A stretch of DNA of 64,000 nucleotides. Origin: Chlorella sorokiniana. Taxonomy: Eukaryota > Chlorophyta > Trebouxiophyceae > Chlorellales > Chlorellaceae. Below the pieces are notes generated by a model. It saw only the letters and a program-made list of their open reading frames with translations. It was not told the DNA's origin and did no database searches. The translations under genes were made by a program, and so were the position numbers. Location of the stretch: NCBI GenBank assembly GCA_025917655.1, contig CP084618.1, positions 682,001 through 746,000 of the forward strand, in the 5' to 3' direction. Positions 1 to 20,947 of the stretch are shown here, piece by piece. Position 1 is the stretch's first letter, and each line of letters starts with the position of its first letter.

Positions 1-397
1 GCTCTCACGGGCATGTGTTCTTGGCACAAATGCATTCGGATAGATTGCAAATGAAGCCAACAGTTGATTCACTATATTTCGCGATGCAGTAACAAGGGCA
101 GGACCAAGCTGCGGCTGGGATTGGCTGAGAAGCGGACCAACAATAGGAGTTGTTTGCCTACCCAGCGACTTGACGTGCATATGCAGCTAATTGCATGTTG
201 CCTTTGAACAGTTTGGTTCTCTGACATGCCCTGATCGGGTGCATCATTAAAATATTGTAGAGCATAACTAAAGGCCTGGCTATCTCATCTCTTATACATT
301 ATGCGTACCACAGTTTCTCACCTAGGAACGATGAGAAACCAGATCACTATTGGCAGCACCATCTAGTGCTTGTGAATTTTACAAAGTGCGATGTCAA
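1..397. other. Left-edge non-coding stretch
   Basis: No convincing coding exon, RNA gene or repeat is visible. It lies downstream of the minus-strand coiled-coil gene that stops at 398-400 and probably holds its 3' UTR. Confidence 0.4.
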
Positions 398-1073
398 TCA
401 TGTAGGTTGTGTAAGATTCTTTGTAGCCTCCTCTAGCTTTGAGTTAGCGTCAGCTAGCTGCAGCCCACAAAACACCAAGTCAACTGACTTTTCCACATCA
501 AGGGGACTGGGCAACAACACGTGGCTCACTTGTTTCTTCAAGTTGGCCAGTTCTGCATCTGTTGAAGAAGCATGGCTCTCTCGCTCAGCCTGTGCTTTTT
601 CAAGGCCACAACCTCAGCTTGAGCATCTGCACCTGCTTTCAAGGCAGCGTCCCGTGATTGAATGGCTTCGTCTTTGGCTTTTCGCGCTTCATCTCTTTCT
701 TTGCTGGCTTGCTGTGCTTGATTCTGTAGTTTGTCATTCAATTCTATTAAGTCGTGGGTTTGCTTGGCCATTTGCTCCTCGCACTGAGTAAGAATCCCAC
801 ATTTAAACGATCCATTGACCCTTGAGCAAGCCAATTGTGCTTCAATCAGCTGTTTATGGCTCGATCCTGCAACAATGGGTCTGCTAAACGGTTATCGGAC
901 TAACAGGCTTCAGGACTCAACGCCGATTGTTCAACGCATGTGGCCGACACAGCCAGTGAGAAACGTTCACCTGGTGCTAAACCTGCCAAAATAATTACAG
1001 CTGCGGCGATCACCCCAGCCGTGAGTCCAAGAACTGCAAGACGCACGCCTCGGCGGGGTCGTTCTACCGTCAT
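398..1073 (-). CDS. Hypothetical single-pass membrane protein with coiled coil
   Basis: Not recognised as a named family. The first exon, from ATG at 1073, gives a short basic N-terminus and a hydrophobic segment (LAVLGLTAGVIAAAVIILAG), so it is probably a type II membrane protein. A middle exon (about 795-875) joins to a last exon rich in E, K, A and Q in heptad-like order (ELNDKLQNQAQQASKERDEA), a long coiled coil. The reading frame slips at the A-run complementary to 594-600; with one more A the coil continues to a stop at 398-400. The exact splice between the membrane exon and the coil is uncertain, because the obvious donor and acceptor would create a stop codon. The gene is divergent from the O-fucosyltransferase-like gene with about 160 bp between start codons. 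Existence of the coil exon is fairly secure; the full model is not. Confidence 0.45.
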
Positions 1074-1233
1074 TGCAGCCCTTCCCAACTATTTGATTCG
1101 TCCTCCAAAAGCCTACAAAGTTAATGGGAACGCTGCCGCCGAACAGAAGATCCAAACCGAACCGGCCACGAACACACGTGTGAAAACGGAACAATGCAGA
1201 CTCCACGTGTCAAGGAAGACATTTCAGTGCGTT
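1074..1233. promoter_or_regulatory. Probable bidirectional promoter
   Basis: 160 bp separate the start codons of the minus-strand coiled-coil gene and the plus-strand O-fucosyltransferase-like gene. Both 5' UTRs and promoters must fit here or overlap neighbouring exons. No TATA box is obvious. Confidence 0.4.
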
Positions 1234-2986
1234 ATGGTCGACAAAAATGCGTTATTGTCAGTGAACAACATGGATCGCGTTCAGCGGTCGTACACAAAGC
1301 CAAGGTCATGTCGAGTTTTCATCATCTCGGCGGCCACAGCCTTTGTTACTTCTTTAATATGTACTTGGTTGATGAATTACTCCAATAAACACACGACTAT
1401 ATCATTTTTGCCGCCTTCCAGCTTGAGAAGGGAGGCACTGGGCGCATTTCAGTCGGAGCTGGCACACAGAAACAATCTCACCCAACTTAAGGAAGCCTTG
1501 GACACTTTCGACATTCGCACATATCGACTTTTCAACCCAGACGTCATGCATGTATTGGACCAGACAGCAGAGCACACCGGGGCGAAGAAACCCAAGCCCG
1601 CCTTCATTTCCTGCACACAGGCCGGCAGGAGGGCAGAGTAGGAAAGCAAGTCCCGTTGTTTATAAACTATACAGCCCCCTATGGCCTTGCAAACCAAATT
1701 TTCTCACATTTAAATGCCTTGACCATAGCATACAGCATGAAAGCAACCCTTATTGTTGCTGATGCTTGGAGTCGCAACTCATTCGAGTCGGTTCACGTGA
1801 TTGGCACTCAGTGGGGCAAGGAGCCTGTTGAAAGCCTTCTAGATGTCCCTGTCATGCAACAGTACTGGAGCAACCTCGGCATAGAACTGACTCAGGCAAG
1901 CCCACATGAGCACTGCCGCTCTGGCGTGACATGACCTGGGTGTCACTGCAATGTTTGCCTTGTGTTATCTTGGACTTGCAGGCACCAGAGTCGACTGATT
2001 GTTTGCAAATTGATGTTACAACCGGCAATGGAGACCCCTTCCGTATCACTGATGGACCTCAACATGTTTCTGTGTATGAGGCTGTCTCACACATCACTGC
2101 AAATGTAAGCCGGCAGTTGCAGGCTGTTCTTGCTAAGGACCCAAAGAAGGATATGTGCGTTGTGATTTTCATAGGACGTCCCATCGTGTTGCTGAATCAT
2201 CGCAGGCAGGTTTACAACCAGTGGGTGTTGTGCTGAAAGCTCAACACTATCAATATCAACTGACCTTTGTAGTGCAGGTCTTATCCAATGGGCGCAGCTG
2301 TTGCACGTGGCATGTTTTTGCGCCAGCAGTCGTCGAGGCAGCCACAGAGATTTTAGGTATAATAAATGACGCACAGTTTCTTGGTGCGCACCTGCGCCTT
2401 GAGGATGACTGGCGGGCGTTGTTGAAGCAAGATCCACTGGACACTTATCTGGCATTGATGAAATCTGCTGGTTTCAATGAGCAATCAACTGTGTATGTCG
2501 CGTCTGGGTTGCTTGGATATGCCAACCACTCAGGTAACTATAGCCAGCTCATTATTGGGGTCTGGGTATACCTTATGGTTTGTTTTTACCAGTTTCGGCC
2601 TGCTTTCAGAATACGGCAACTTGACAGAAACCCTCCTGCAAAAGGGCGTTGCTGGAAGGGTGGTACACAAGGAGAACACGCTCAAACCGGACACATTGAA
2701 AGGCAGGAAGTTTTGCATGCACGGTCATTGCCAACAACGCAAACAGGAAACAAGCAGGGATCTAACATTGACACTTTTACTCTCCATGAATACAAGCAGG
2801 TTTCCACTCAGAGCAGAAAGGTCTTGTGGATTTGCTTGTGATGACCCAGGCTAGAAAAGTCATCAGCGACCACAGAAGCTCTTTTGGAGTGTTCATTCGT
2901 GAATTTCGAGCAATTCATGGGTTGCCACGAAACACATTCTTTGCTGTGGGGGTCAGGCGGTATTTCCAATGCTTGGGCATTTGGTG
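1234..2986 (+). CDS. O-fucosyltransferase-like (GT65/GT68-type) type II membrane protein
   Basis: Likely a Golgi/ER enzyme that transfers fucose or a related sugar from a nucleotide sugar. ATG at 1234 (alternative 1270) is followed by a basic stretch and a membrane anchor (VFIISAATAFVTSLICTWLM). The next exons carry the donor-site-like segment FINYTAPYGLANQIFSHLNA, then GAHLRLEDDW, which matches the conserved HLR-[FIY]-E motif of the PF10250 family with its key arginine, then STVYVASGLLGYANHS. The last exons encode LTETLLQKG and AEQKGLVDLLVMTQARKV. The stop is at 2984-2986; a possible missing G near 2945-2950 would change the last residues. The gene at 61964-64000 on the minus strand is a clear paralog that shares these blocks. 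About seven exons with GT-AG introns. Family membership is well supported; substrate is unknown. Confidence 0.75.
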
Positions 2987-5290
2987 AATGAACTTGATAC
3001 ACAATCCCCAATGAGAAATAGGGCTACAAGCCAAGTCACAAGGTGAATCAAGAATGATTGAGAAGCTAACAGCAAACTGCTGCCTCTGCCAAAGACCCAG
3101 CATGATATAGAATCTGGCTGTTGTTTACTGTGGGTTGCTGCTATGCATCACCCCTAACTGCTTCCGCTGCCATTCCTTGCCAAATGACATCTGCGATGAA
3201 CTTACATTTTGTACACCCGCCTGGCGCTGCCTGGAACCTCAGGCAGCGGCAGGCGGCAGGCAGCGGCACTTAGCAGCATCCAGCTTGAAGCTAAATTGTT
3301 GGCAACAGGTGCTCGGGGATGGTGTGTGCGCTGGTTTTTGAAGTACACGTGGTGCCATGCTGGCTGGTTGGGACTACTGGTCAGCCACACCAGCGAGTCG
3401 ATGCGACGCGCCCTAATCAGGTGGTCGTCGGTGTGAATGTTGGCACGTCCAACGCGCACACGCCGCAGCCCAGGGAGGCGCCCGTCTTCAACCATCTCAC
3501 AGAACCACAGCACGCTCATCAGCGTGTGTTGCTGATTGCCAATGGGCACCACTAGCATATCTTGCAGCCGCCCCACATACAGCTGGCTAGACGCTGGCGT
3601 GGGCGTGGGCGGGAAGCTAAATGTGGCCGCCGCAAAAGACTTTGCGCTGATCAGCTCGCTCCACTTGCAGCCGCAGCTCCAGCGCCTGCATTCATGCCAC
3701 ACATGCCCATAGTGATCTGCAGGTTTCCACCAGCAGTCCGCCAGTGTACACAGCTGCAGGCAGATTGCAGCAGCAAAGTTGCAGCCCTGCAGGCACTCGC
3801 ACCTGCACAAGCGTGTATCGTTCGCCAACGGCGGCTGGGCCAGTCAAGCAGTCCTGGGCATTCGGACTGAGGCGCTGTCGCAGGCTGGGGCTAACTGCAT
3901 CCAGCCGGCGCATCCACGATACAAAGTCAAGGCCAGCAGGGCTGGGGACATAGTGCTTGCGCATGCAAGAACTCAAATCAAACAGTTGCAAGACAGAACC
4001 AGCTGTCCCGCCAAGCCTCATGCAAGCTGCTGCGGCAGCCACCCAACCTGAGTAGCTTCTCATAGAGCTCGAAGCGTCAGCTCCATCAAGTCAGCAACTC
4101 GGACACAAACTTGTCAATTGCCAGGGTGGTGCGGCGCCCGCCTGGCTTCACCTCTGCCACGTCTTTTGGGTTTGCCACAAGCACCTCCTAGTTCTGCTGA
4201 GCCATCACGCAAGTGTTGCGGTCATCTGCAAGGAGCCAGGGGTGCAAGGCAGGTTTGGGAAAGCTGAGCTCTGGCACAAACCGAAACCAGCTGAAACAGG
4301 CAAAGGCAGGCTGAATAAGGCAGGAACCAAGCTGTAAATCACTTCTTCTGGCATGAATACCTGTGCGTGGCAGGACGGAGGCACGGGCGTGCTTGAGCAG
4401 GGCATCACCATGACGCAGAGGCGTTCAATGGCCAGGCACACATAGTTGTGCAGAAGCACAGGCATTGCCTTCTATTATGCGATTCCTCGCTGCCACACTT
4501 GATTCCTGCAAGCAAACGAGGGTTGGAGGCACCCACATCATATGAATTGATGCAACATGCAGTACCTATGCGTAAGGCGCGGCGGCATGGCTGCAAGCAC
4601 ACTCAGAGCAGTAGATGTCGACTGCCCGGGCTCAAAGGCCCGTGCACAGCCGATGTATTAATAATTTACTGTGAGACGTGCCACCGGGGCTGCCGAAAAA
4701 ACCAAATGTATTTTTGCAAGCAAATGCTGAAGTGCTGTCGACTGCTGCCGCTGGCGGGGCACACCTGCAGAGGGCGATGGTGGGATGCAAGAGCACGTGC
4801 ATCATGCTGGGTTCGATCTGCAGCACCGATCACACGCTTGTCTATGTCACCTTGGCAGCGGGATCAAGCACACCGTGCATCTGCCCGTGTCTGCAACGAG
4901 TGCTGGCCGGTTGAGGCGCCCCCGAGATTTGGGGCACCGGAAAGGCTGCTGTCACATCAAGGTTGATCCACGGATTCCTCGTGAAAATTCCGGGGCGTGA
5001 AAAGCGCCAAAGGGTCAGGTCGCCAACTGAAACAAGGTGACGGCGTGCAGTTGCACCGATGCATATTGTAAATTTAGGAAGAAAAACTTTGCATACTACG
5101 GCATAGGAAGAGAACGAGAAACTGATTTCCGGTCCACGGTACACCCAGCTATTGCAATATTGTACTACAAGGATACAAGCGGCGAATAGTTGAAGGAGTC
5201 CTTCGGCGTTACCACCGTATAACAGTTTGCCGTTATTGAAAGCTGTACCTCGTGATTATCCGTTTCCGCTATCGTCGGTATGAAGAAAAA
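2987..5290. other. Gene-poor stretch between two glycosyltransferase genes
   Basis: About 2.3 kb without a gene that can be modelled. Minus-strand reading segments at 3202-4063 look protein-like (listed separately). The stretch 4205-5144 holds only short open segments with no recognisable motif. It may contain a decayed gene or DNA transposon and the promoter of the gene starting at 5291. Confidence 0.4.
3202..4063 (-). pseudogene. Degenerate coding stretch, possibly a transposase-like remnant
   Basis: An open segment of about 208 codons (3202-3828) encodes LYVGRLQDMLVVPIGNQQHT followed by SVLWFCEMVEDGRLPGLRR and RARRIDSLVWLTS. A second minus-strand segment in another frame (3692-4063) precedes it. 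The layout, a GRL/GRV..L.V strand followed by a WF...DG and a RI(D) strand, recalls C-terminal parts of large algal and fungal cut-and-paste transposases, but no catalytic motif or terminal repeats were seen, so this is only a resemblance. No clear start codon or promoter. It could equally be a broken host gene. Confidence 0.25.
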
Positions 5291-6379
5291 ATGCTCCAGC
5301 AGCGCAAACCTGGCCTGATCTCTTTCCTGTGCCTCACGCTTGCTGCGTATAGTTACCTTTACAATCGGATCGGCGCAATACCAGGCTATTCTCCCCGATA
5401 CCTTGCCTTGGGGTCGTTGTTGGGTCAGACCCTCACCTATTCCTCATGCGGCTGTTTCACAGCATGGATCATCCTATCCAGCGCTTTGTTGTGGTTCATG
5501 GCGGCATTGAACCCTCTGTGAATATCCAGATCAATCATATAAAACATGCCAACGTGACTGGCGGTGACTTTGTTGAGGTCACCCTTCAAAGGTGGCCTGG
5601 AGTATCAGAGGGCTGGAATGCTGTCTTGCAGGCATGTCCTGCAGCTTCCTGGATAATGCTTCTAAACATCGACATTGAGGTGAGAGTACTGTCTGCATGG
5701 ATCAATCGTGTTGTGTGTTTGATGTCGAATCAAAGCAACCATACTGCATCCTGCTTGCCTCAGTTCACGCCTGGAGCCTTATCAACTTTTTCTAGAGCTT
5801 TCAGCAGTGACATTGAACAACAAAAAACCGATTTTGGAGAGCCAACTTGCATTGAAGGCAGCTGGACGGATGCAATCTGTGGCTTCCGTGCATTTGCATT
5901 AACTCGCCATGCCATTAGCACTGTTGGTTTATTTGATGAGGTAAGGATTACGTTTGTGTCTGATAATCGATAGAAATAAGATGCCTGCCCACCTGCCTAT
6001 GCAGAATATCTTTCCAGCTTACTATGAAGATGCAGATTTTTGGCGACGGTTTAAAGCCAGCAAGTTACGCAACACATACTACAAGCGGAGCAGAGCATGG
6101 CACAGCTGGCACAACCACAGCCAATCCAGCTCAAGATTTCTTAATACAAACACCAGCACAGTCACCTTCTCTGCCATTCAAAAGGCTGTGCAGCGCTTCA
6201 CTGTACCCTACCTGACTGAAAAGTGGGGCTGTTTCAATCAATCGCATGGCTTCAAGGTTTCAAATTGCACATATTCAGTCCCATGGGGCAACCAAAGTTT
6301 ATCGCACTGGGTGAAGCCATCAGCTGCTCTGCAGAAAGAAAAGATTGCGTTCCTTCTTGCTAATTCACAAGTCGCATGA
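5291..6379 (+). CDS. GT-A-like type II glycosyltransferase, paralog 1
   Basis: ATG at 5291 gives a short N-terminus and a weak membrane anchor (LISFLCLTLAAYSYLY). Three exons (5291-5679, 5764-5940, 6005-6379) encode a GT2-like fold: an N-terminal strand LFHSMDHPIQRFVVVHGG, the acidic strand WIMLLNIDIEV that could be the metal site, GFRAFALTRHAI, and DADFWRRFKASKL. The C-terminus holds a conserved tryptophan-rich block (AWHSWHNHSQSSSRFLN) and TVPYLTEKWGCFNQ. The frame slips at the C-run 5393-5396; one more C gives SPPIPCLGVVVGSDP, which matches APPVPCLGVALGSDP of the convergent paralog. Probably a Golgi enzyme of unknown substrate. Its partner at 6632-7822 faces it tail to tail. Confidence 0.7.
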
Positions 6380-6631
6380 CCAACGCTGTGTTTGATGGTT
6401 AAGTTTACTGAGTTATGCCTAGCTCAAGCTGAAGGTTTACAGTACGCGCCATTGTTACACGTCGTGTTGCTAGATCTCCTTGATACTAATCATGCTATCA
6501 ACAGATTTTGATTGTAAGTTTCAATTTCAAGTTGACTGCTTCCTGTTGGGCCGTCCCACACAAGAGCAGGTTGACCACTCTTACCGCTGCTGCCTCTTGC
6601 CCGGACGTTTGACATATTGACATTTACATCG
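6380..6631. terminator. Shared 3' region of two convergent genes
   Basis: 252 bp lie between the stops of the convergent paralogs. TGTAA, the usual green-algal polyadenylation signal, occurs at 6513-6517 on the plus strand, about 134 bp after the plus-strand stop, and on the minus strand at 6437-6441, about 190 bp after the minus-strand stop. The two 3' UTRs would therefore overlap. Confidence 0.45.
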
Positions 6632-7822
6632 TTACTTGTCCTTCCTTGATTCAGCCAACAGAAACTCGACTTTCTCGTTTTGAAGAGCATCTGATGGTTT
6701 CTCCCAGCGTGTCAAATCGCTTGAGTTCCATGGTGTGGCAAATGTGCAATTCTGGAACTCAAACCTATCTGTCTGATTGAAACAGCCCCACTTCTCCTTC
6801 AAGTATGGGACCGTGTACATTTTGGTTGCCTGTTGAATGGCACGGAAGGTCACCGTGCTGGTTTCTCGCGTTAGGAATCTTGAGCTAGATTGGCTTTGAT
6901 TATGCCACGAGTGCCACACGTGGCTGTCCTTGTATGGCTTTGTTGGCAGCTTGGATGCAATCACTCGCCGCCAGTAGTCGCTGTCTTCAAAATAGGCCGG
7001 ATAGATGTTCTGCAACCCATAGAATAAATTTGCTTGATTGGGACCGGCCATAATCCAAGCTTGCTGTGGTAAACACCAGCAACGAAGCATTTGCAACTCA
7101 CTTCATCAAACAAGCCCACAATTTTGCGCATCCTTTGAGAAAGGGCAAATGCTATGAAGCCGCAGCCTGATTTGCCTTCCCCTATATTGACACAGATTGG
7201 CCCGCCAAAGTCTGCCGTACCCTCGCTAACATCTTTGCTGAAGCCTCTGGAGAACTCTGCCAAGGCACCTGGCTTGAACTGCGCAAACAAAATCAATGCA
7301 CGTTGTTTGTATTTCAGTGAGCTGTAGGCAATCAGAGTGACAAAATCATCACCAAACTACCTGCACATCCATATTTAAAATCATGTACCACTTGGCTTCG
7401 GGGCATGATTCAATGATTCTATTCCAGCCTTGTGCGACTCCTGACCATCTTCCCAAGTACGTTGTGGTCAGGTTGGGAAACGAGTGGATTCCGTGATTCA
7501 GTTCAGCTTCAGTTGATGTCTCGTTTCCACCATACGCAACAATAATACGCTCCACCGGGTGGTCAATGCTGTACAAGAGTCTTAAAAGGAACAAGTTTGG
7601 ATCTGACCCCAGCGCGACGCCAAGGCAGGGCACAGGTGGTGCATAGGCTGGTGCCTCCACATGGGTCGCCTTGTCTTCGGCCTTATCCTGGTGCTCCAAC
7701 AGCAGAACTGGACATTTTTCAGACTGGCTGAAGCGGGTACCAAGTATCACGACGAACAAGCAAATAAAAAGGATGAAAAGAGCCAGTCTCACGTAGCGCC
7801 GGGCCTTTTTCTTGGTAGCCAT
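6632..7822 (-). CDS. GT-A-like type II glycosyltransferase, paralog 2
   Basis: ATG at 7822 (MATKKKARRYVRL) gives a classic type II N-terminus: a basic cluster, then a membrane anchor (LALFILFICLFVVILG). Three exons (7822 to 7361, 7278 to 7102, 7010 to 6632) encode CLGVALGSDPNLFLLRL, IDHPVERIIVAYGGN, the acidic strand WYMILNMDVQ, GFIAFALSQRM, FEDSDYWRRVIASKLP, VWHSWHNQSQSSSRFL and TVPYLKEKWGCFNQT. Intron positions match paralog 1 exactly, so the pair came from a duplication. Length is about 340 residues. It is divergent from the LamG/GT4 gene with about 206 bp between starts. The acidic strand plus the later ED.D are candidate metal-binding sites. Its substrate is not known; it is presumably Golgi-located. 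Confidence 0.75.
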
Positions 7823-8028
7823 AGCGTTGCTTGGCTTATGAAGGTGTGCGCAAAACGCGAACGCTTCGAGGGCCGGCGTGCACTCCACGTCATCACAACA
7901 ACAATGCACCATCCAACATTCGCGCAGCATTCATGTCAAGACGTTAATTTTGTCTCATCATTACCTTGTTCCATCAGTTATCACACAGTAATAGCGAAAG
8001 ATCCGGACATCGGCAACCGGCAAGGTTC
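7823..8028. promoter_or_regulatory. Probable bidirectional promoter
   Basis: 206 bp between the minus-strand glycosyltransferase start (7822) and the plus-strand LamG/GT4 start (8029). The arrangement suggests co-expression of two secretory glycosylation genes. No clear TATA box. Confidence 0.4.
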
Positions 8029-11000
8029 ATGAAGGCGTTGGCTCGCAGTTCATCGTCTCTATTCGCCTTTGTGTTTATCTACACTGCATTACACTGCATT
8101 CATCTGCATTTCTTGCTTCCGGCGAACATAGAAAATGCGGACCCCTACGAAGTCAGCAATCAAGGAGATACCGAGGCGGACAGCAGGGCTGTCATTAATT
8201 GGGAGGCCATTAGGTTCTTGAAAAGTGATGGCGTCCAACCAAAGGCGGCATGGGCCGAATTGCCCTCTTTGGCATTTGCCAGTGGGCAGGACTTGCCCCC
8301 AGCCCACAGTCTGACCTTGTCAGGCAGCGCTACATTTTCTGCATGGTTGAAGCCAGAGATGCAGCTACCGCTGCAGTGCATTGCTAGTCTGGATCAGCGC
8401 TGGATGCTAGCACTCAAGCACGGTGCTGTGTTTATATCATCAGCAAGAAGTGGAGGCCATACAACCTTTACCACTTTTCTCACTGCTCCCCTTCACAATT
8501 GGACGCATGTGGCTGTTTCGCTCCACCCTCAAAATGGCAGTGTGTCTGTGTACATTAATGGTACAAGCGCTCCAGTCCTTGCGGAGCTGTTGGCTGTAAG
8601 GCAGCCCACCTGCATTTTATACCTGTCAAGCATTACTCTCACAAACGCCCATTTTTTGCAGGGCAATTTTTCTGATGCGAGCACTAACGCAGCAAAACAG
8701 CTGCAGCTGGCCACATGTGATCGGTACAAAGCGGGCGTAGGGAGCCACTGGGTGGGATGGCTTGCAGGCGTTCATGTGCTTGATCGAGCACTTAGTCCTG
8801 GAGAGGCACAGCAGTTGCAGCTTAACAGCCATCTTTCCGACACCATATATAGCCTGCCTTCCTCAGCAATCAAGCAATTGAATTTTTCTCAAGTTCCGTC
8901 CCAGCCTGCACGGGCTAGCATCGTGCAGCAAATGTCTCCATCACGGGCGTGTGCGCTGCCCTCTCCAAATTCTATCATAGTACTGGGCATACCTAAGCCA
9001 CCATCTTTGACAGCCATGGCCTGGATACAGATGGCTGATGCACCACGAATAAAAGAAGCTTGCATTATGTCACATGGCTCCTGGGAAAAGGGATGGAAGC
9101 TGAGCATGTAAGTGCGTTTGCTTGCTTTGCTGTATTGTATCCTGGTACACTGAAGTGGTTGTCCATTCTGCAGAACGCCTCACATGAACCTTCAGTTCAC
9201 AGTGCATACAACTGGTGGCCTGGTTCGCAATTACTTTTCGCGGCGTATGGAGTCTCACGGAGACTGGCAACATGTGGCTGTTGCTTATGACGCCATGGAT
9301 GCCAAAGTACAATTTTATGTGAATGGGTTTCCAGTTGAACTGGATGCCTCCCCATATGTGAGAACACTGCGGTGGCTGCATGCTCAAACATATACATGAG
9401 TCTCTGCCTACTGATTGTTGTGTTGACATTGCAGCCTATAACTGGACAGCATCCTGTGCACGTTGATCAGGCCCCACTCACCCTTGGCCGGTAAAGAAGT
9501 TATTCCAAGTATACTGGCAGGCGAACCAATTGGCCCCTTAAGACTTGGGCATTGTCACTCATGTGCAGATGCCAGGCTGACAGCAATGAAGATGAAATCT
9601 TGCATGGACACATTGCTGATGCAGTGGTTTGGAATAAGGCCCTTGATTTCCTATCACTGCGAATGGCTCTTCACCGTGGGCTGGCAGCTGCTCACTCTCT
9701 TCTTCAAAATTTAGACTCGACAACAGACATTATATTTGCTACCCCAGCTGATGGTTGCCCATTCAGGTGACGTGATGGATTGTCAAGGGCACAGTATCAC
9801 CATACTCATTGTTGAAGATGGTTGCAGGGCGATGGATGCACCTTCTTTTAGAGGGTTGGAAACCTTTGCCGCACATCACGACAATTGCGCATCTACAGCG
9901 TGTTCAAGAGGTTTTGGCCAACACAGTAGTTATCGTCTCTTTTACAAGTAGGTGCTTTAAGGCCATGCGTTGTTAGTATCGCACAAACTGTGCTATTTGT
10001 ATCTTTGCATATGCAGACAAACCTCAGGCAGCCATGCGCACCCTACAGTTTGTAGACGCCGAGCTCAGCTTATTATATGGGTCAAAGGCACAAAAATTGC
10101 CAGCTGCTGTTCTAAGTAGCAGCAGTACAAATGGCACCTGGGCGTACCGACACTTGAATGTCACGACAATACAGAGCTCCTTTGACCGTCGCTCAGGTGG
10201 AGGAGAGTTGCAGCTCGTTGCGGCAGCAGCAGCCCAGTTTTCTGCAGGTTGGGTGTTGATAGTCAGCGACTCATTGGCTCCCATGGAGTATTGGCTGTGG
10301 AACCTGGCCACAGCAGTTGCTGAAGATGTGGATAGCTCACACCCTACAAAGGCAGCCAAGTCCCTCACTGTGAACCACGCGGGAACCATAAAATCTGCCG
10401 GTCTGCAGCATCAACTCACAGTGGTTGGTGATGGGAGTATTTCAACCTTACCTTACATGCTCTACAGGTCAGGAACATGTCGTACTAAAGCTGAGCACTA
10501 ACTTGATATAAAGTCGAGATGTTGTCTGCTGATGGTGAACTTTCAGGGGCTACCCAGTCAATTACTTGTCAAGTGTGCAACATGTTCTGTCCGACAAGCT
10601 AGAAGCAACTTCATGCAAGTCACTGTTGATTGATCGCAACGAACTACTTGCTGGAGCTGGCAAGGTCCCTAAAGGTGCGTTGCACAGGGAGCTCTCCCAG
10701 TGCACATATCCTTTCTCACTTTTATCATACATCTACAGCTTTTTGCCTGCCTGCAGCAATGGATTTCTTCTTACAATGTGCCGCAATGACCATCCCACTT
10801 GTCCAACGCAAAGACTTACGAATGGCATATAACAGCTGGGCACTGGATCTCTCATCTGCTGAAGAGGAATGGAATTCCAATGTTGACAGCATGCTCACAT
10901 ACCACGAGGCAAATAAAGCATCTGCTGAGGAGTACAGTGCACTAGTGGAAACACAAGTCAAGGACCTTCTGAAGAATGACCTTCAGTGCAATCTCACAGT

Positions 11001-14000
11001 GAAATGGATGTTGGCATGCGGCGGAAGCTGGGCATGGGAAGCTGCCAACATGGCAAGCAATTGCAGTTGCTCTCATCCCCTGGGACATCGCTTGGCGTAT
11101 CACATGTTGCGGCTAATGTGTGCCTCTGCAGATTGAACACTTGGATCGCAAGGTTCAACTTCGGGTGCAAATCCAAAAACCATTCAAATATTGTGATGGA
11201 CATAACGTACTTGGTGCTGCTGCACCAAGCTTTGGCGAAAGGATTGAACGGATGGTAAGCCATGCGTACCACACTTACATTGATTAAGTCTGAATCTTGA
11301 TTCTGATTTCTTTTGGTGTAATACTGACTGTTGCAGATGCATCTTCCCAACACGCAACTCCTCTCAGCTTCATTTGCAGAGAGTTTCGTTCAAGATGACA
11401 TTGTCATTTTCCACCGGTAGGCTTGCAATCAACACCATCACTGGGCTGATTGTCACCGTGATGCATCCACCATTGCCATTCAACCGATTCAAAGTGCTGC
11501 ATGCAGAGATTACTTCCGTGTCACCAACTGGATGAATCCCAATGTGCAGCGGCCAAAGTACATAATTGGGCGCTACATGAACGAAGTATCATCGCTCCAT
11601 GCAAGGTATGCCTATGATATCTGATAGCGGGTGTTGCGTTTATATTGGTTACTAAGATGCCAATCCTGACAGCAGACTTGTGGAGCAATGCAACACCCTC
11701 GACGAGGTGTGGGTGCCATCGGCCCATCATGTGGAAGTATTTGCTGCAGCTGGGGTTGATCGAACCAAGCTGGTAGTGATTCCTGAATCTATCGATACCA
11801 ACTTTTTGATCCCAACAAAGTTCCACCACTACCATTGCCTGGGTAGGCGTGGATGCCAGATACAGTCACTGCTCCCCTTCTGAAACATCAGGCAGCTGAC
11901 CTTGACAGACTTTTGACAGTCTGGCAGTCTTCTCTGTAGGCGAAAGGCATTTGTGTTTCTCAGTAACTTCAAGTTTGAGGAGCGCAAGAACTGGAAGGCT
12001 TTGATCTGGTGAGCCGGCTTGGCTTAACATGTGGCCATCATCTTCCTTTCCACCAACACTGTTCCATGCTTCTCTTTGCAGGGCGTTCTGCGACGCATTC
12101 TCCAACAGTGATGACGTTTCACTGTACATACATACAAACCTGTATGGTAAATTCAACAAGATGGACCTCATCATGGAGACCATACAAACTTTCATTGAAT
12201 CAGCTGTTGTGGGCCATACAATGCATAAGGGCAAGGCGACTATCCCCCACATTGCACTCACGGGTCGCCCCCTGTCCACCAGCGACATGATGTCCTTGTA
12301 TAAGGCGTCAGATGCGTTTGTGTTGCCCACACATGGCGAGGGGTGGTGAGCAGGACTTGCTGTTGCATGTTGCTGCCATCCACTATGCATCATCAACCTC
12401 ATGCATGCAATGCAGGGGCCTCCCACTCCATGAGGCCATGGCTATGCAGTTGCCAACTATTTCCACTGCCTGGGGTGGTAACACCCAGTTTATGACACCT
12501 CATAACTCATACTTGATTCGGTAAGGTTTCACAAGCTTACTGTCGCCACTTGTACAGGAAATCACCGGATAGGCATGTACTGCAGAGTCAGAGAACTTGA
12601 AAGCAGCGACCCATATGATGACTGGTTGCGAAACATGCGGTGGGCCAAGCCTGATGAGAAGCATCTTGCGAAGCTTCTGCGGGTGAGCTTGATTGATTGA
12701 CTCTCCAGCTTGCTCAGCAACCATGCGGGTATGTAGAGCATCCATGGAACACAAACATCAACATTTCATTGAAAATGCATGACAGGAAGTTTACGATCAA
12801 CCAACCAAGGCCAAGCAAAAGGCGCAGCTGGCAAGGCAGGACATTGTGTCAAAGTACAGCAACGAGGCTGTAGCACACCAAATTTTGCAGCGTTTCAAAT
12901 CCATCGAGTTGAAGTTGCAAAAACCAGCTCAGCCTGCCGAGCTGAGATTCGGCTATCAATTTCAATGGTGCGCAATTTGGTCTTGCATTTGACTGGCAGC
13001 TTCAAAGTTATCCAAATGCCGCTTCTTGCCTTGATACAGGACAATTGCCGCAGACGTCCAATTATGTAGCTCCATGCCTTCTGCGAAGCGTTTCATTCCC
13101 AATAACTCATCTTTCACAAGCAAAGATTCAGTGGAGTCTTTGTGCTCATCTGGCAAGCCTGTCAAGCTTGCTTTTGTCACGCCTTACCCACCAAGGCATG
13201 ATGGGCTTTCAGAATATGCATCCAATCTTCGCACTGCCCTGCTGGAACAATGCAAAAATCTTCAGGTGAATCCAGCCCTGCTTGAGCAGCTGTTGCCGTA
13301 TGCTGAGCTTTTGATCTTTTTTCTTCAGCTGCAGATTGACGTTTTTGCAGTCGTTCTTGATTTCTGGAATGCTGAGCATGAGGATTATGACAAGAACATT
13401 GGTGAAGGCTTGTGTTATGTATCAACTTGGTATTAAAGAATCGCTCTGCTGATTTGCTGTATTGTGAAATGTAGTCAAGCACAAGATCTGTCGCGAGTCA
13501 TACTCGGATTATGAGACTGCTGCACAATCAATCAACCAAGACTATGATGGTGCCATTTTGAACTTAAAGCTAGGTGAGCAAACACCACTTTGCTGCATCA
13601 TGGATGTGTTTCGAAAGCTAATCTCAAGTGAAGCTGCACACTTATTTTTCTGTAGGAGCGCTTGGCGGCACGCAGTGTGCCTTAGCCATCTGCTTTGCCA
13701 AGCTCCTCGCAAAACCCCTCGTTACGATAGTTCATTCAATCACACATAATGTAGATGATGCCTATCAGGTAAGCGTTTGTATGCCACATGCAAACGGAAA
13801 ACATGACTGTAAACACAGACGCTGCCCTTACAGGCAACATTAATGCACACTTTGGCGGAGTCAAGTGCTGCTATCGTGTTCAGTGAACGAGCGAGACTCG
13901 AGCTTGATACTGCCATTGGTTACCTTCCTGCCAACAGCAATATACTTCAGCCGGCAAACATTCATGTCATTCCTCATGGAGCTCATACATTACCTTCACT

Positions 14001-14757
14001 TCCTGATAAAGAACAAAAGAAAGCCAAGCTAGGGCTAAAAGGCAAAACAGTACTGATAACAATTGGATATCAAGGTCCAGATAAGGTAAGTAGGAAGATG
14101 CTTATAAATGATGTCCATGTTGTTCTCCTGACAGAATGCTGTAGCTGCAGGGGATTGACCATGCAATGCGAGCTGTGGCACTCTTACCAAACACAACCAG
14201 ACAAGACCTGATTTATGTTGTCGTCGGGCAGCCTGCGGACTGCGGCAGGCGCTGCGTTGACCATTACAGCACAATTGAACAATTGGCGAATGAACTTTCG
14301 CTAACAGATCAAGTTCTGACGATCAACGAGCACCTTTCACAGGTAGAGGAGAAATCATACCTTGCAATTTTGTGACGTTTAGGTCAATCTAACTTTGAAG
14401 GTTTACTTGCAGGATGCTTATCTCACTGTCCTGCAAGCAGCGGACATCTATCTAGCCATGTACCCTGAAGACCTGCTTCCCCATCCTGCAACGTTCTACG
14501 ATGCTTTAGCCAATGGCTGTGCTATGCTGACTACATCATCAAAGGCTGCTTTGAGTCATTTGCCTCAAGATGCTGGACGCATTACATGGAGCACGGCGCC
14601 TGAACTAGTCAGCAGAGAAATGTTTGCTATGCTTGACAATCCTGTCGTGCTGGCAGGTATGCAAACGGCTGCATGGCAGGCCAGCAGAAGCTTCAGCTGG
14701 CAGCGTTCTGCATATTCGCTTCTAGGCGCTGTACTAGCTCCATTGCTTGTAACATAA
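8029..14757 (+). CDS. Giant LamG-LamG-GT4-GT4 membrane protein
   Basis: One long multi-exon gene, my estimate about 1,500 residues. ATG at 8029 leads into a membrane anchor (LFAFVFIYTALHCIHLHFLL). Exon 1 (8029-9107) holds a LamG/concanavalin-like domain (TFSAWLKPE, WTHVAVSLHPQNGSVSVYIN). A second one spans about 8990-9700 (WQHVAVAYDAMDAKVQFYVN, HGHIADAVVWNKAL). A middle region (9.75-11.1 kb) is not recognised. The first GT4 domain (about 11.3-12.9 kb) has TLDEVWVPSAHHVEVF, LVVIPESIDTNF and a full E-x7-E motif (HGEGWGLPLHEAMAM). The second (13.1-14.75 kb) starts KLAFVTPYPPRHDGLSEYAS, then GALGGTQCALAICFAK and NIHVIPHGAH; its acidic motif is altered (EDLLPHPATFYDALANG). The frame slips at the T-run 11803-11807. 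The stop is at 14755-14757, just after a TGTAA. Whether the middle exons all belong to one transcript is inferred from continuous strand, spacing and splice sites. Confidence 0.65.
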
Positions 14758-16055
14758 TAAACAAAAAACTTACATGCACAACCGGCTTTTGAAGCTCAAG
14801 ACATGGAGACATAACCATCGGCAACTACGGCTGATCAGCATGACAAACATTGAAGGAACACTAGAGTCAGCTGCCCCTTGCGTGGGTCCTTCACTTGGGA
14901 AGAGGCGGGCAGGGCTTTGGCGGGGAGGGGGCGTGGGGGAGTCATGGCGTGGGCTTGGGTGGGTCTAAGCCGGATGAAGGAGTGGACCCCCATCAACATA
15001 AACAGGTTTCAGTGCAAAAGCAGCCGCGTCCGTCAGCTGTGCCATCACTTTCCTTCTCCATTTTGCTCTGGGTTGATGGTGGAGAAAGTCAAGATAACGG
15101 GGATTGACTGCATGCCTGCAAGAAATACTGTCACGAGTGAAACGAAGAACACAAGGAACTTTTGTAGTTGTAAAAACACAGACTACCCCACCCAGCGTCG
15201 AACACAAATGACTTGCCTTGAGCTAACAAGCGCCCCAGCACTGGTCATGTAACTTGCGCTTTGTAGGCTTGTCAGAGGCCAAGACTGGTCACAAGGTTGT
15301 GAGCAGCTTCCACGAGAACAGCCAAACCAACCTCAGAGTGCACGTTTGTGCCCTTCACAATATGCCTCGTGATCAGTGGCCTGCCTTCAGTTAGTGCTAA
15401 CTTCACATGCCGTTGTCACAAACTGGGCAGCTTAACCGCCGTCGCTGCAGCCAGAGCGAGGGGACAGCAGGATTGCAGCAGACGCTCTCGAACATTGCAG
15501 AAAGGCAAAGCAAGGTTCTAAGCCAACCCCAGCATGAATATCAAGCAGACAGCTCCACTGTTTGAATCTATCAAGATAAACAAATTTGCCTGCTTCCACG
15601 AGAACTCCACAGCAGAAACTGTGTCAAATGTGAATGCGAGCACTCCCAATGGCTGCATTAACCCAAAGCCAACAAGTCCCCTCCCCTACTCCCCACACCC
15701 ACCCACCCACCCACTTGTTCACAAGGGCTACCCGCCCAAGTCAGGCAGAGTATTGAAGGGAGTAGGCATTTTCTACAGGCAGTAGCGCTTCCTCGTCAAC
15801 GATTAATGTTCGCAAATGTCTGTTCTATGCCTACAGGTTCGCGCAAAATGTTCGCGAACAGGCCGGGTTATCCCTGACGTTCGCCACCTGTCTTTTTGGA
15901 CTCAACACACTGTTTCAGGAGAATAGTGCCGTAACGGAACGCCCAAAAGACCCTGTTTCTTCTGCGTAAGTACTGCCTGTCCAGGCACTACGCAAATGCC
16001 CTTTCCGCTCTCCTCTGCACAGTTGGCGCTTAACCTCTAACCAGTGTATAATTTA
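14758..16055. other. Intergenic stretch
   Basis: About 1.3 kb with no exon I can support. It includes a short run of CCCA units (about 15698-15714) and the presumed promoter of the GT90 gene. Short open segments on both strands lack motifs and plausible splice partners. Confidence 0.4.
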
Positions 16056-18044
16056 ATGGCAAGAAAGAGACAATCGAAGCCTAAATCATGCATCCGTTTG
16101 GTGTCGGCGTTGGCCATATTCGTGACATGTTTTGTCCTTATTCAGTTTGCACCTACAAAGAGTGCAGGTATGATCGTGTGTACATCTGTCGTATCGTATG
16201 CGGTTGTGTGACACTGTTCAATCTTACTCTGCAGCGCCTGCAAGCTGCGTCACACTCAAGAGTCAGGTAGGAGCCGTTTACATCTGTGAACTAGTACAAT
16301 GGTCTGCGACGACTTAATCGTGCCAATCTGCAGGCAGAAGGCAATGAGCTTCAGTGGAAAGCAAGGGTTGCAAATGAGTTACGATATTTCAAGGAGGGTG
16401 TAACCAGGGAAGGCTTATGGAACATAGCTACTTATTTGTCACCTTGGAGCCTGGTCGTTCATCTCACGTCAGACCGGGAAATATGGATACCGCCACAACC
16501 GTTTGTTCGACCATTGCCAGATGATATTGCCAGGGTTGCTTTCCCAAAGTATGCGTTTGGTGCGTCTTGCCTTGTGCATGCATAGGTTTGCTGAACAATA
16601 CATGCTAACAAGTCGAATCGTTTCTGCAGGCTCGCTTGCAGCCCTCCAACTCTACTTAAAAATGCGAAGTCAGTTCCAGACGTGACGATCGTGCTCTTCT
16701 TCACTGCAAATTGTATATACACGCTCTCCGATTTGGCCCTGCTGATGAATTACGACCTTGCGACGAAGGATGTGCCCATGACTGCACCATGGAAAGATTG
16801 GCTTGGGAAAGATGTTGATAGGCGTGCTAGAGCAACACCACCATTGAATGTTACTATTGCTCCTGCTCTGCACTATCAAACTGCAAGCTGGACCCCCACC
16901 AGCCTGGAGTGTCGGGACTGACTTTTCCCCAGTACGATTGGGTTTGGGAGCAGCAGGTGACCTACAGGCCTCCCACCCAACATGATTTTGGCAGTACTTT
17001 CTCTTCTGAGCTTTCATTTCATGATGATGTAGGACTTCACTGACGGCAGCGTCGACCGCAAGGATGGTTTACAACATGTAGCATGGGAACAACGGAAGCC
17101 CATGCTGGTATTTCGTGGCGGTATTAAGAGTGACAGCATTCCCTTCAGCAGTAACAGTGGTTTGAAGTCCATTCGGGGTCGTGCAGCTCACCTAGCACTC
17201 GAGTTTCCAACGTTGTTGGACATCAAGCTGACAGACCCTGTCTGCTCACCTCCAGTGCCTCCCAACTGCCGGGACCCCAAATTAAGTTTGGAGCTTTATG
17301 ACACATCGTGAGTAGCAGAGCTCAATCAAGCTTGCACATGTTTGGAAATGGACATTGAACTTTTCTCATCTTGCAGGCCCAGCAGATTTTTGACTTATAA
17401 AGAGCAGCTAGCGTACAAGTACCAGTTAGATCTGGATGGACACGGCGGTACGTTCAGGTTTAAACATTTACTGCTCACCGGCTCTCTGGTGTTCAAAGTT
17501 GATTCACCCATGAATCAATTCTGGATGCCACAACTTGTCCCTTGGGTAGGTGTATGCTCTGCTCCGGTTCCACAATGATCTAATAACTAACAGTGAACTC
17601 AATGTCCTGTGACTAGGTGCACTACATCCCTGTTCGATGGCATGATTTTGAAACTGACCTTGTAAAAAAGGTTCAGTGGGCAGTTGCCAACGATGCAGCC
17701 GCAAAATCCATCATGCTGATGGGCAGAAAGTTTGCACAAGAGGAGCTGACTGATGCTATGGTAACTCGCTATCAAGAAGAGGTGTGCTGTGATTGCTGTT
17801 TTTGCACACGGCCAGTGGTTGTCCCTGGCTTGAATGAGCTTCACGTTCTGTGCAGGTTCTTAGTCAGCTGGCACTTCTACAAAACCCTCCCTTCCCAAAA
17901 CTTGATGGATCCGTCAAATTCTGTTGTGCTCTGATTCCCGACGGAGATGAGTGGATGCACTACAAGGCAAAGTGCCTCCAGTACGAGGGGACATGTTCAA
18001 CGGATGCAAAAGGGAGCATCAACTTCAATGGCTTAGTACAATGA
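16056..18044 (+). CDS. CAP10/KDELC-type glycosyltransferase (GT90)
   Basis: Family GT90 enzymes (fungal CAP10, animal POGLUT1) transfer glucose or xylose in the secretory pathway. ATG at 16056 encodes MARKRQSKPKSC followed by a membrane anchor (LVSALAIFVTCFVLIQFAP), so it is type II. Diagnostic blocks follow in order: DFTDGSVDRKDGLQHVAWEQ, KPMLVFRGGI, SIRGRAAHLALEFPTLLDIK, FLTYKEQLAYKYQLDLDGHG, TFRFKHLLLTGSLVFKVD, FWMPQLVPWVHYIPVR, then a helical C-terminus. The LDLDGHG...FRFK...SLVFK order is the hallmark of the family. The stop is 18042-18044 and TGTAA lies 23 bp later (18067-18071). The frame slips at the C-run 16893-16897; one more C joins the flanking blocks. Neighbouring genes to the left are also glycosyltransferases, which suggests a shared surface or glycoprotein glycan role. 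Confidence 0.85.
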
Positions 18045-18066
18045 AGCTTGCTGTTTTCGTATGCTT

Positions 18067-18071
18067 TGTAA
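18067..18071 (+). terminator. TGTAA polyadenylation signal of the GT90 gene
   Basis: TGTAA 23 bp after the stop codon, the common green-algal signal. Confidence 0.5.
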
Positions 18072-18617
18072 TGCCTCTTGCAAATATTAGCACTTATTTC
18101 ATTTTTAACTTGGCTGTATGTGTCCTGAGATTTGATTCCAAGACAATGGAGGAACAAGAGACCCTTACTCAGAAACCTTGAATATGTTTTGGGCAGGTAC
18201 TCAAATACATCGATCTCTTTAGAGTTGTCGAACCTCAATCAGTGTGAAACTGCTTGATGCAGTGCCAACAGTTACCGATGGATGACGGGGCCAGTTCTTC
18301 TTCCGCACTGGCCTCCTCTGTCTGAAAAGTGCATGAGTGCATGAGAGGAGTGCTGTCGCGCTGCCAGCAGTGCAATACTGCCCTGCTGGGGAGCATATTG
18401 GTGTTGGCCAGCGGAGCAAGCAGGACGGCTGTTTTTATTTCAAGACCACATTCACACTCTCTGATCATGGGGCAATTGCATGGGGCACTTTGGCTTACTC
18501 ATTGCCACGAGCGAAGGTGAGCATATCGCGAGGAAGCCTGGGCCAAGTGCGCACGAAAGCGCCGCCACTGGCTGTTTGTATCTTCTCTCCCTGATCATTG
18601 CAGCATCTATCCAAATG

Positions 18618-18622
18618 TTACA
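18618..18622 (-). terminator. TGTAA polyadenylation signal of CK2 alpha
   Basis: TGTAA on the minus strand about 90 bp beyond the CK2 alpha stop. Confidence 0.45.
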
Positions 18623-18712
18623 CTGCTAGTGGTGTACGCAAACATTCTCGCCACGGCATAATCCTGGCGCAGGGCGATGCCGCTGGTGACGCTGCCCGGG
18701 CTGCTGCACGGC

Positions 18713-20947
<2,235 letters not shown>

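Follow-up and report, generated by a model that had tools for sequence, protein, structure and literature searches.

We analyzed a 64,000-nucleotide stretch of the green alga Chlorella sorokiniana (GenBank assembly GCA_025917655.1, contig CP084618.1, here called C13, positions 682,001-746,000; hereafter the window), the left end of which lies in a block of low G+C content (GC) that holds genes matching glycosyltransferase and sugar-methyltransferase families. Segmentation of the window together with 100 kb of its left flank and 20 kb of its right flank placed this block at C13:675,261-700,660 (25.4 kb, GC 0.496), corresponding to about -6,740 to 18,660 in window coordinates. The block and its recognised sugar genes inside the window are given below in window coordinates. 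The gene models are single-gene script models made from the sequence alone, and an anchor was called where the Kyte-Doolittle mean was at least 1.6 over 19 residues.

1..18660, no strand: in-window part of the low-GC block (segmentation)
1234..2990, plus strand: gene with an O-FucT domain (PF10250) and an N-terminal anchor, modelled with 5 exons (Pfam, hydrophobicity)
5291..6379, plus strand: GTA1, a phrog_29879 glycosyltransferase (PHROGs profile; the domain is not in the frame of the ATG at 5291)
6632..7822, minus strand: GTA2, a paralogue of GTA1 lying next to it in inverted orientation, 338 amino acids from 3 exons, with an N-terminal anchor (PHROGs profile, alignment)
8029..14757, plus strand: LamG-GT4 protein of about 1,650 amino acids, modelled with 21 exons; it has a hydrophobic stretch at the N terminus, two LamG-like stretches and two GT4 stretches (Pfam, script model)
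16056..18044, plus strand: GT90 (POGLUT-like) gene encoding 462 amino acids with an N-terminal anchor, modelled with 8 exons (Pfam, script model)

Left of the window, at C13:676.8-679.6 kb, the block continues with two adjoining anchored methyltransferases, MT1 and MT2, which are 53% identical to each other and match phrog_21658. Seven block genes (O-FucT, GTA1, GTA2, LamG-GT4, GT90, MT1 and MT2) thus match glycosyltransferase or sugar-methyltransferase families, and six of the seven carry an N-terminal hydrophobic stretch, the exception being GTA1, whose modelled part has no hydrophobic stretch.

The O-FucT protein, which was hand-joined for the Pfam search and departs from the script model near its end, matched PF10250 with E 2e-10 (41.3 bits against a curated cut-off of 31.5) and carries HLR..DW and SSF..F..R stretches by eye. 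LamG-GT4 matched Laminin_G_3 (E 1.1e-26) and Glycos_transf_1 (E 3.2e-20) in two stretches each, scoring 72.8 bits for the GT4 family PF00534 (cut-off 26.4). EX7E, which we take to be a GT4 motif, is present in the first GT4 domain and absent from the second, which may be inactive. The GT90 protein matched PF05686 with E 1.4e-23 (83.9 bits against a curated cut-off of 24) and aligned with the structures of Protein O-glucosyltransferase 1 and Rumi. These matches bear out the identities that a preliminary description of the window had given to the three genes. It had also ascribed a single N-terminal membrane anchor to most of the genes: the anchor is found in four of the five window genes (O-FucT, GTA2, LamG-GT4 and GT90), but it is the sole hydrophobic stretch only in O-FucT and GTA2, with three more in LamG-GT4 and one more in GT90.

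GTA1 and GTA2 are 54% identical and match phrog_29879, named galactosyl transferase, with E 4.2e-13 and 3.5e-10, respectively. Neither has a match in Pfam, and GTA2 has none by sequence among solved structures. With both as queries, 324 stretches in viral contigs matched the patterns and 102 of them encoded relatives; 80 of the 102 were kept, proteins from 33 of those 80 were read and 15 were aligned. One viral-contig member, L054, is predicted to fold GT-A-like: its model (pLDDT 89) resembles B4GALNT1, GalNAc-T2, WrtF and RmlT in Foldseek with TM-scores of about 0.5-0.6, a prediction that covers L054 and not the algal proteins. The earlier label of GT-A-like for the two genes is compatible with the profile matches and with this predicted fold. 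The aspartate of N-x-D (the N varies), VGLFDEN, P-x-Y-x-E-D-x-D and KWG are invariant in the two algal and seven viral members, and both algal copies keep most of the conserved family residues. The frame mismatch of GTA1 lies at window positions 5291-5401 and could mean that an exon was missed, that the assembly is wrong there or that the gene is broken.

MT1 aligned with the structures 3ssm (E 1.6e-15 over 148 residues) and 8ia9, 'Demethylmacrocin O-methyltransferase' (E 1.2e-9), which we take to be MycE and TylE, both presumably methylating a 6-deoxyhexose. Judged by alignment, MT1 and MT2 are related to sugar O-methyltransferases of the MycE/TylE type over the catalytic domain; after the G-G-x-Y strand, MT2 retains the pair E-D and MT1 has E-S. 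A viral-contig protein, L056 (4998-7073 in locus L056, from a contig of 452,799 bp), combines a phrog_29879 domain (GTA-type), a phrog_21658 domain (MT-type) and a further methyltransferase domain, and its gene adjoins an epimerase-like gene by eye. Since L056 joins both domains in one protein, it suggests that GTA-type and MT-type activities go together elsewhere. A second viral contig (184,787 bp; L181, 2295-4843) holds two adjoining GT4-like genes by eye, one of which is 35% identical to the window GT4; the neighbourhoods of L056 and L181 both look phage-like by eye.

MT relatives were found in bacteria at 10 loci, and the viral and bacterial relatives of the block genes are 26-35% identical to them. 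A plasmid tblastn search with MT1 gave no match. Scans of viral contigs confirmed relatives in none of 56 stretches for MT, none of 4 for the YLHSKG gene described below, the single stretch for O-FucT or any of 5 for GT90, negatives that are weak because the scans rest on a few short peptide patterns. NCBIfam returned nothing above cut-off for GTA2, the YLHSKG gene, MT1, MT2 or L054.

The composition of the block differs from that of its surroundings. The best single split of the window falls at 18,650 (GC 0.492 on the left versus 0.647 on the right, log-likelihood gain 658), and the neighbours of the block have GC 0.584 on the left and 0.619 on the right. The right edge is sharp, and the left side descends in stages (0.642, 0.584, 0.496). 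The lower GC that the preliminary description had noticed at positions 1-18600 is therefore real and its right limit holds, but its left limit was the window edge: the block begins about 6.7 kb further left and includes the methyltransferases.

The genome comprises 38.8 Mb in 15 contigs, of which 13 are large and nuclear; C14 (77,013 bp) is mitochondrion-like and C15 (117,793 bp) plastid-like, their open frames being judged by eye. In a small sample of hand-picked nuclear positions (15 stretches of 2 kb and 20 of 400 bases, excluding two organelle samples), the mean GC was 0.666, the minima were 0.526 (2 kb) and 0.53 (400 bases), and 0 of 35 stretches had GC at or below 0.52. Three 2-kb samples from C13, a contig of 1,206,010 bp, had GC 0.66-0.70. 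Low-GC segments occur on several ordinary chromosomes: in addition to the C13 block, 30 of the 40 two-kb bins across C2:370-450 kb fall below 0.60 (lowest 0.507), and one C8 sample is the 0.526 minimum. Inside the block (C13:679,619-681,241), a dispersed 0.5-kb repeat is present as two copies, inverted and diverged; longer copies, 72-78% identical, occur on C1, C2, C4, C5 and C8, and short matches in further places. Contamination of the assembly is an unlikely source of the block, because it shares this repeat with other chromosomes and host-like genes flank it on both sides of the same contig.

The GC at third codon positions (GC3) was 0.45-0.57 in nine block coding units, as compared with 0.778-0.965 in twelve flanking gene sets. 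The values were 0.495 for O-FucT, 0.565 for GTA2, 0.494 for LamG-GT4, 0.490 for GT90, 0.560 for MT1, 0.500 for MT2, 0.448 for the YLHSKG gene, 0.50-0.52 for two GTA1 exons and 0.47-0.49 for a coiled-coil-like piece; the genes adjoining the two block edges, a dehydratase and a kinase, have 0.883 and 0.889. Because the flanking sets had been picked by a finder favouring G or C at third positions, the comparison was repeated with an unbiased finder, which gave a median of 0.49 (0.33-0.57) for 17 block segments and 0.82 (0.29-1.00) for 106 flank segments; the two sets overlap at the 17 flank segments with GC3 at or below 0.60, many of which are probably false frames. With the biased finder on both sides, the medians were 0.61 (0.49-0.67) for 7 block segments and 0.91 for 192 flank segments, one of which was at or below 0.60. 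Intron GC in the block gene models is 0.43-0.53, and the median intron length is 73 (37 introns) versus 172 (7 introns of one flank gene). The GC shift extends to exons, introns and silent sites and is regional. We rejected low GC as a trait of glycosyltransferase genes per se, as relatives elsewhere in the genome are GC-rich at third positions (0.76-0.96 in nine GT4-type exons, 0.67-0.94 in five GT90 exons and 0.67-0.96 in eight PF16363 exons).

The remaining features in and beside the block are as follows, in window coordinates.

550..855, minus strand: coiled-coil-like coding piece by eye, GC3 0.47-0.49 (codon positions)
3202..3843, minus strand: open frame that matches nothing in Pfam and is not recognised as a sugar gene; its best segment has GC3 0.73 (Pfam, own-genome search)
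18716..20629, minus strand: protein kinase, the first gene right of the block and outside the cluster, GC3 0.89 (one exon versus Pkinase E 2.4e-5, under cut-off; casein-kinase-II-alpha-like by eye)

The open frame at 3202..3843 has a single relative, 46% identical across 107 amino acids, at C1:516.7 kb. A gene with a YLHSKG stretch lies inside the block at C13:675.6-676.2 kb and matches nothing significantly in Pfam, PHROGs or NCBIfam.

Just left of the block, on the minus strand at C13:671,023-673,222, is a stand-alone nucleotide-sugar 4,6-dehydratase (E 1.1e-79 to 6vlo), presumably of the RHM type, without a reductase-epimerase domain downstream by eye. Next to it come genes for ribosomal L1 and malate dehydrogenase and genes of the Ost-alpha and sodium:sulfate-symporter types, and a UDP-arabinopyranose mutase lies further left. 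Twenty flank coding pieces, selected from 85 listed (two of those in the block), were scanned; 16 match Pfam at E 0.01, the nucleotide-sugar enzymes among them being the dehydratase and RGP, and the other matches include no glycosyltransferase.

Own-genome searches were run exon by exon and the best candidates scored, so distant copies may be missed. They found no second locus for the GTA, MT or YLHSKG gene, and GTA and MT are neighbouring pairs with no further genome match at E 0.001. LamG-GT4 has one weak GT4 relative (C1:4,093 kb, host-like GC3). O-FucT has one relative, just beyond the right end of the window at C13:746.3 kb (746,322-746,678, minus strand, GC3 0.975), which is among the four flank pieces without a Pfam match and has an HPDL..HYLQQGRAEGR stretch ahead of it. 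A family search of the genome for PF10250 matched nothing anywhere, including the window O-FucT gene, and was set aside.

We consider it probable that the block is a cluster of Golgi glycan-building genes on an ordinary chromosome, located in one of the scattered low-GC regions, and that its product is a methylated surface polysaccharide. In the Golgi, type II enzymes would act in sequence: those of the GT-A, GT4, GT90 and O-FucT folds would add sugars, the two MycE-like enzymes (MT1 and MT2) would methylate sugar hydroxyls, and the product would be an O-methylated polysaccharide or glycoprotein glycan bound for the wall or surface. The 4,6-dehydratase, not unique to the locus, could supply a 6-deoxyhexose donor. 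A polysaccharide of Chlorella vulgaris is reported to contain 2-O- and 3-O-methyl-L-rhamnose and 3-O-methyl-galactose (PMC7612518, PMC4446615), so O-methyl sugar chemistry exists in such algae. The sugar chains are probably for the cell surface, and the block is a candidate locus for surface-sugar variation.

Several observations weigh against this reading. GT90-family exons also occur on C2, C11 and C9, and GT4-family exons on C1, C3, C4, C7 and C13. In several places the block holds something other than glycan genes; the intervals 2,990-5,290 and 14,760-16,055 of the window hold no recognised sugar gene, and the preliminary description's 'back to back' was in this respect inexact. The 4,6-dehydratase was rejected as a block member: it is outside the block compositionally (GC3 0.883 in selected exons, 0.78 in the full model with the block codon table), and C2 has a closely similar exon at C2:3,755,389. 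No sugar transporter was recognised at the locus. The Pfam signal for MT1 and MT2 is weak (Methyltransf_24, E 0.04-0.05, under cut-off). In addition, 8 of the 37 modelled introns begin with GC, and some exon joints are therefore probably wrong.

A wider proposal, which we regard as rather speculative, is that the scattered low-GC regions of the Chlorellales are dedicated surface-glycan loci, exempt from GC drive and with fast turnover of glycosyltransferases and sugar methyltransferases, which set the specificity of virus attachment or symbiosis and form an independent counterpart of the outlier chromosomes of the Mamiellales. The second such locus would be C2:388-428 kb, with GT90 and weak signals for PLOD-type glycosyltransferase, O-FucT and FkbM. 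Ten pieces of C2:370-450 kb, a region selected because GT90 exons lay there, gave GT90 (E 0.12), PLOD-type glycosyltransferase (0.004), O-FucT (0.006) and FkbM (0.013), all under cut-off, along with clear RNA polymerase and signal peptidase matches.

That mixture on C2, of GT90 with genes for an RNA polymerase subunit and a signal peptidase, speaks for a rival account in which the C13 block is an ordinary low-GC region whose glycosyltransferases adjoin only through tandem duplication and chance, with no shared pathway. Low-GC regions are reported as scattered in Chlorella, and as GTA1/GTA2 and MT1/MT2 are duplicates, there are fewer independent families than genes. We nevertheless find this account doubtful, since five glycan-enzyme families (O-FucT, GTA, LamG-GT4, GT90 and MT) remain when each pair is counted once, whereas the flank pieces with Pfam matches include, apart from the dehydratase and RGP, no glycosyltransferase.

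Acquisition from a lower-GC organism, by horizontal transfer or introgression, with a composition not yet adapted to the host, would fit GC3 values of about 0.5 beside mostly 0.8-0.97 in the flanks, the frequency of GTA relatives in viral contigs (102), the presence of MT relatives in bacteria (10 loci), and the single genomic locus of the GTA, MT and YLHSKG genes. This origin is improbable in view of the roughly 37 introns of the six gene models, the low identity of the viral and bacterial relatives, the own-genome repeat inside the block and the homologous GT4 gene on C1 with host-like GC3. Under the glycan-cluster reading, the low GC would reflect weaker GC-biased gene conversion or selection and not recent foreign origin, which we prefer given the intron-rich genes and the dispersed repeat common to the block and other chromosomes. 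Finally, a recombination-poor locus such as a mating-type region or centromere, with low GC as its primary feature, is highly improbable: low GC, short introns and a dispersed repeat do recall the BOC1 region, the subject of a sex-chromosome hypothesis mentioned in PMC3491373, and Auxenochlorella has AT-rich candidate centromeres, but those candidates are intergenic and 2.1-7.6 kb long (PMC12636532), whereas the block is gene-dense with glycan genes, and no regulator or housekeeping set was recognised in it.

We did not find the locus described in searches of an open-licence library of papers; the Chlorella NC64A genome paper, outside that search, could describe it. Long-range GC variation has been reported in chlorella genomes (PMC3446292), C. 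variabilis has about 67% G+C, and the chlorovirus receptor is described as unknown and probably a carbohydrate (PMC7019647). The locus is compact, and its few genes are named candidates for methylated surface-sugar synthesis in a Chlorella-like alga.

With respect to known enzymes, MT1 and MT2 share the methyltransferase domain of MycE and TylE (3ssm, 8ia9) and keep the DDG(S/G)H stretch, but their N terminus bears a hydrophobic stretch, and the part ahead of the domain is shorter. The algal block resembles the viral contig of L056 in having a GTA-type glycosyltransferase with a MycE-type methyltransferase, in L056 also near an epimerase and another methyltransferase by eye. The algal genes differ from their viral and bacterial relatives, which are single open frames, and L056 lacks an anchor before its glycosyltransferase domain.

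With respect to known loci, the block is like the scattered low-GC regions reported for Chlorella in being a low-GC stretch on an ordinary chromosome of a genome of about 67% GC, and unlike them in its focus on glycan genes, which the excerpts of PMC3491373 and PMC3446292 do not mention. The preliminary description had drawn an analogy with Mamiellales. The small outlier chromosome of Ostreococcus tauri carries glycosyltransferases, methyltransferases, epimerase/dehydratases and sugar transporters, and over-expression of glycosyltransferases is tied to virus resistance in this alga (PMC5082852); a term search of PMC13390643 on O. mediterraneus did not return the word glycosyltransferase. The analogy holds for GC and in part for gene classes, but low GC is not special to the locus, because scattered low-GC regions of Chlorella, unlike Mamiellales outlier chromosomes, are already in print (PMC3491373) and C2:370-450 kb is low as well. 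Like chromosome 19 of O. tauri, the block has GC below that of its genome (0.496 versus 0.666) and holds glycosyltransferases and methyltransferases, with a dehydratase just outside; unlike it, the block is a 25.4-kb intron-rich segment of a 1.2-Mb chromosome of higher GC, and no sugar transporter was seen. Taken together, the locus resembles a Mamiellales outlier chromosome in gene classes and GC, but is no chromosome, and it offers a direct test of whether low-GC glycan loci arose twice in green algae.

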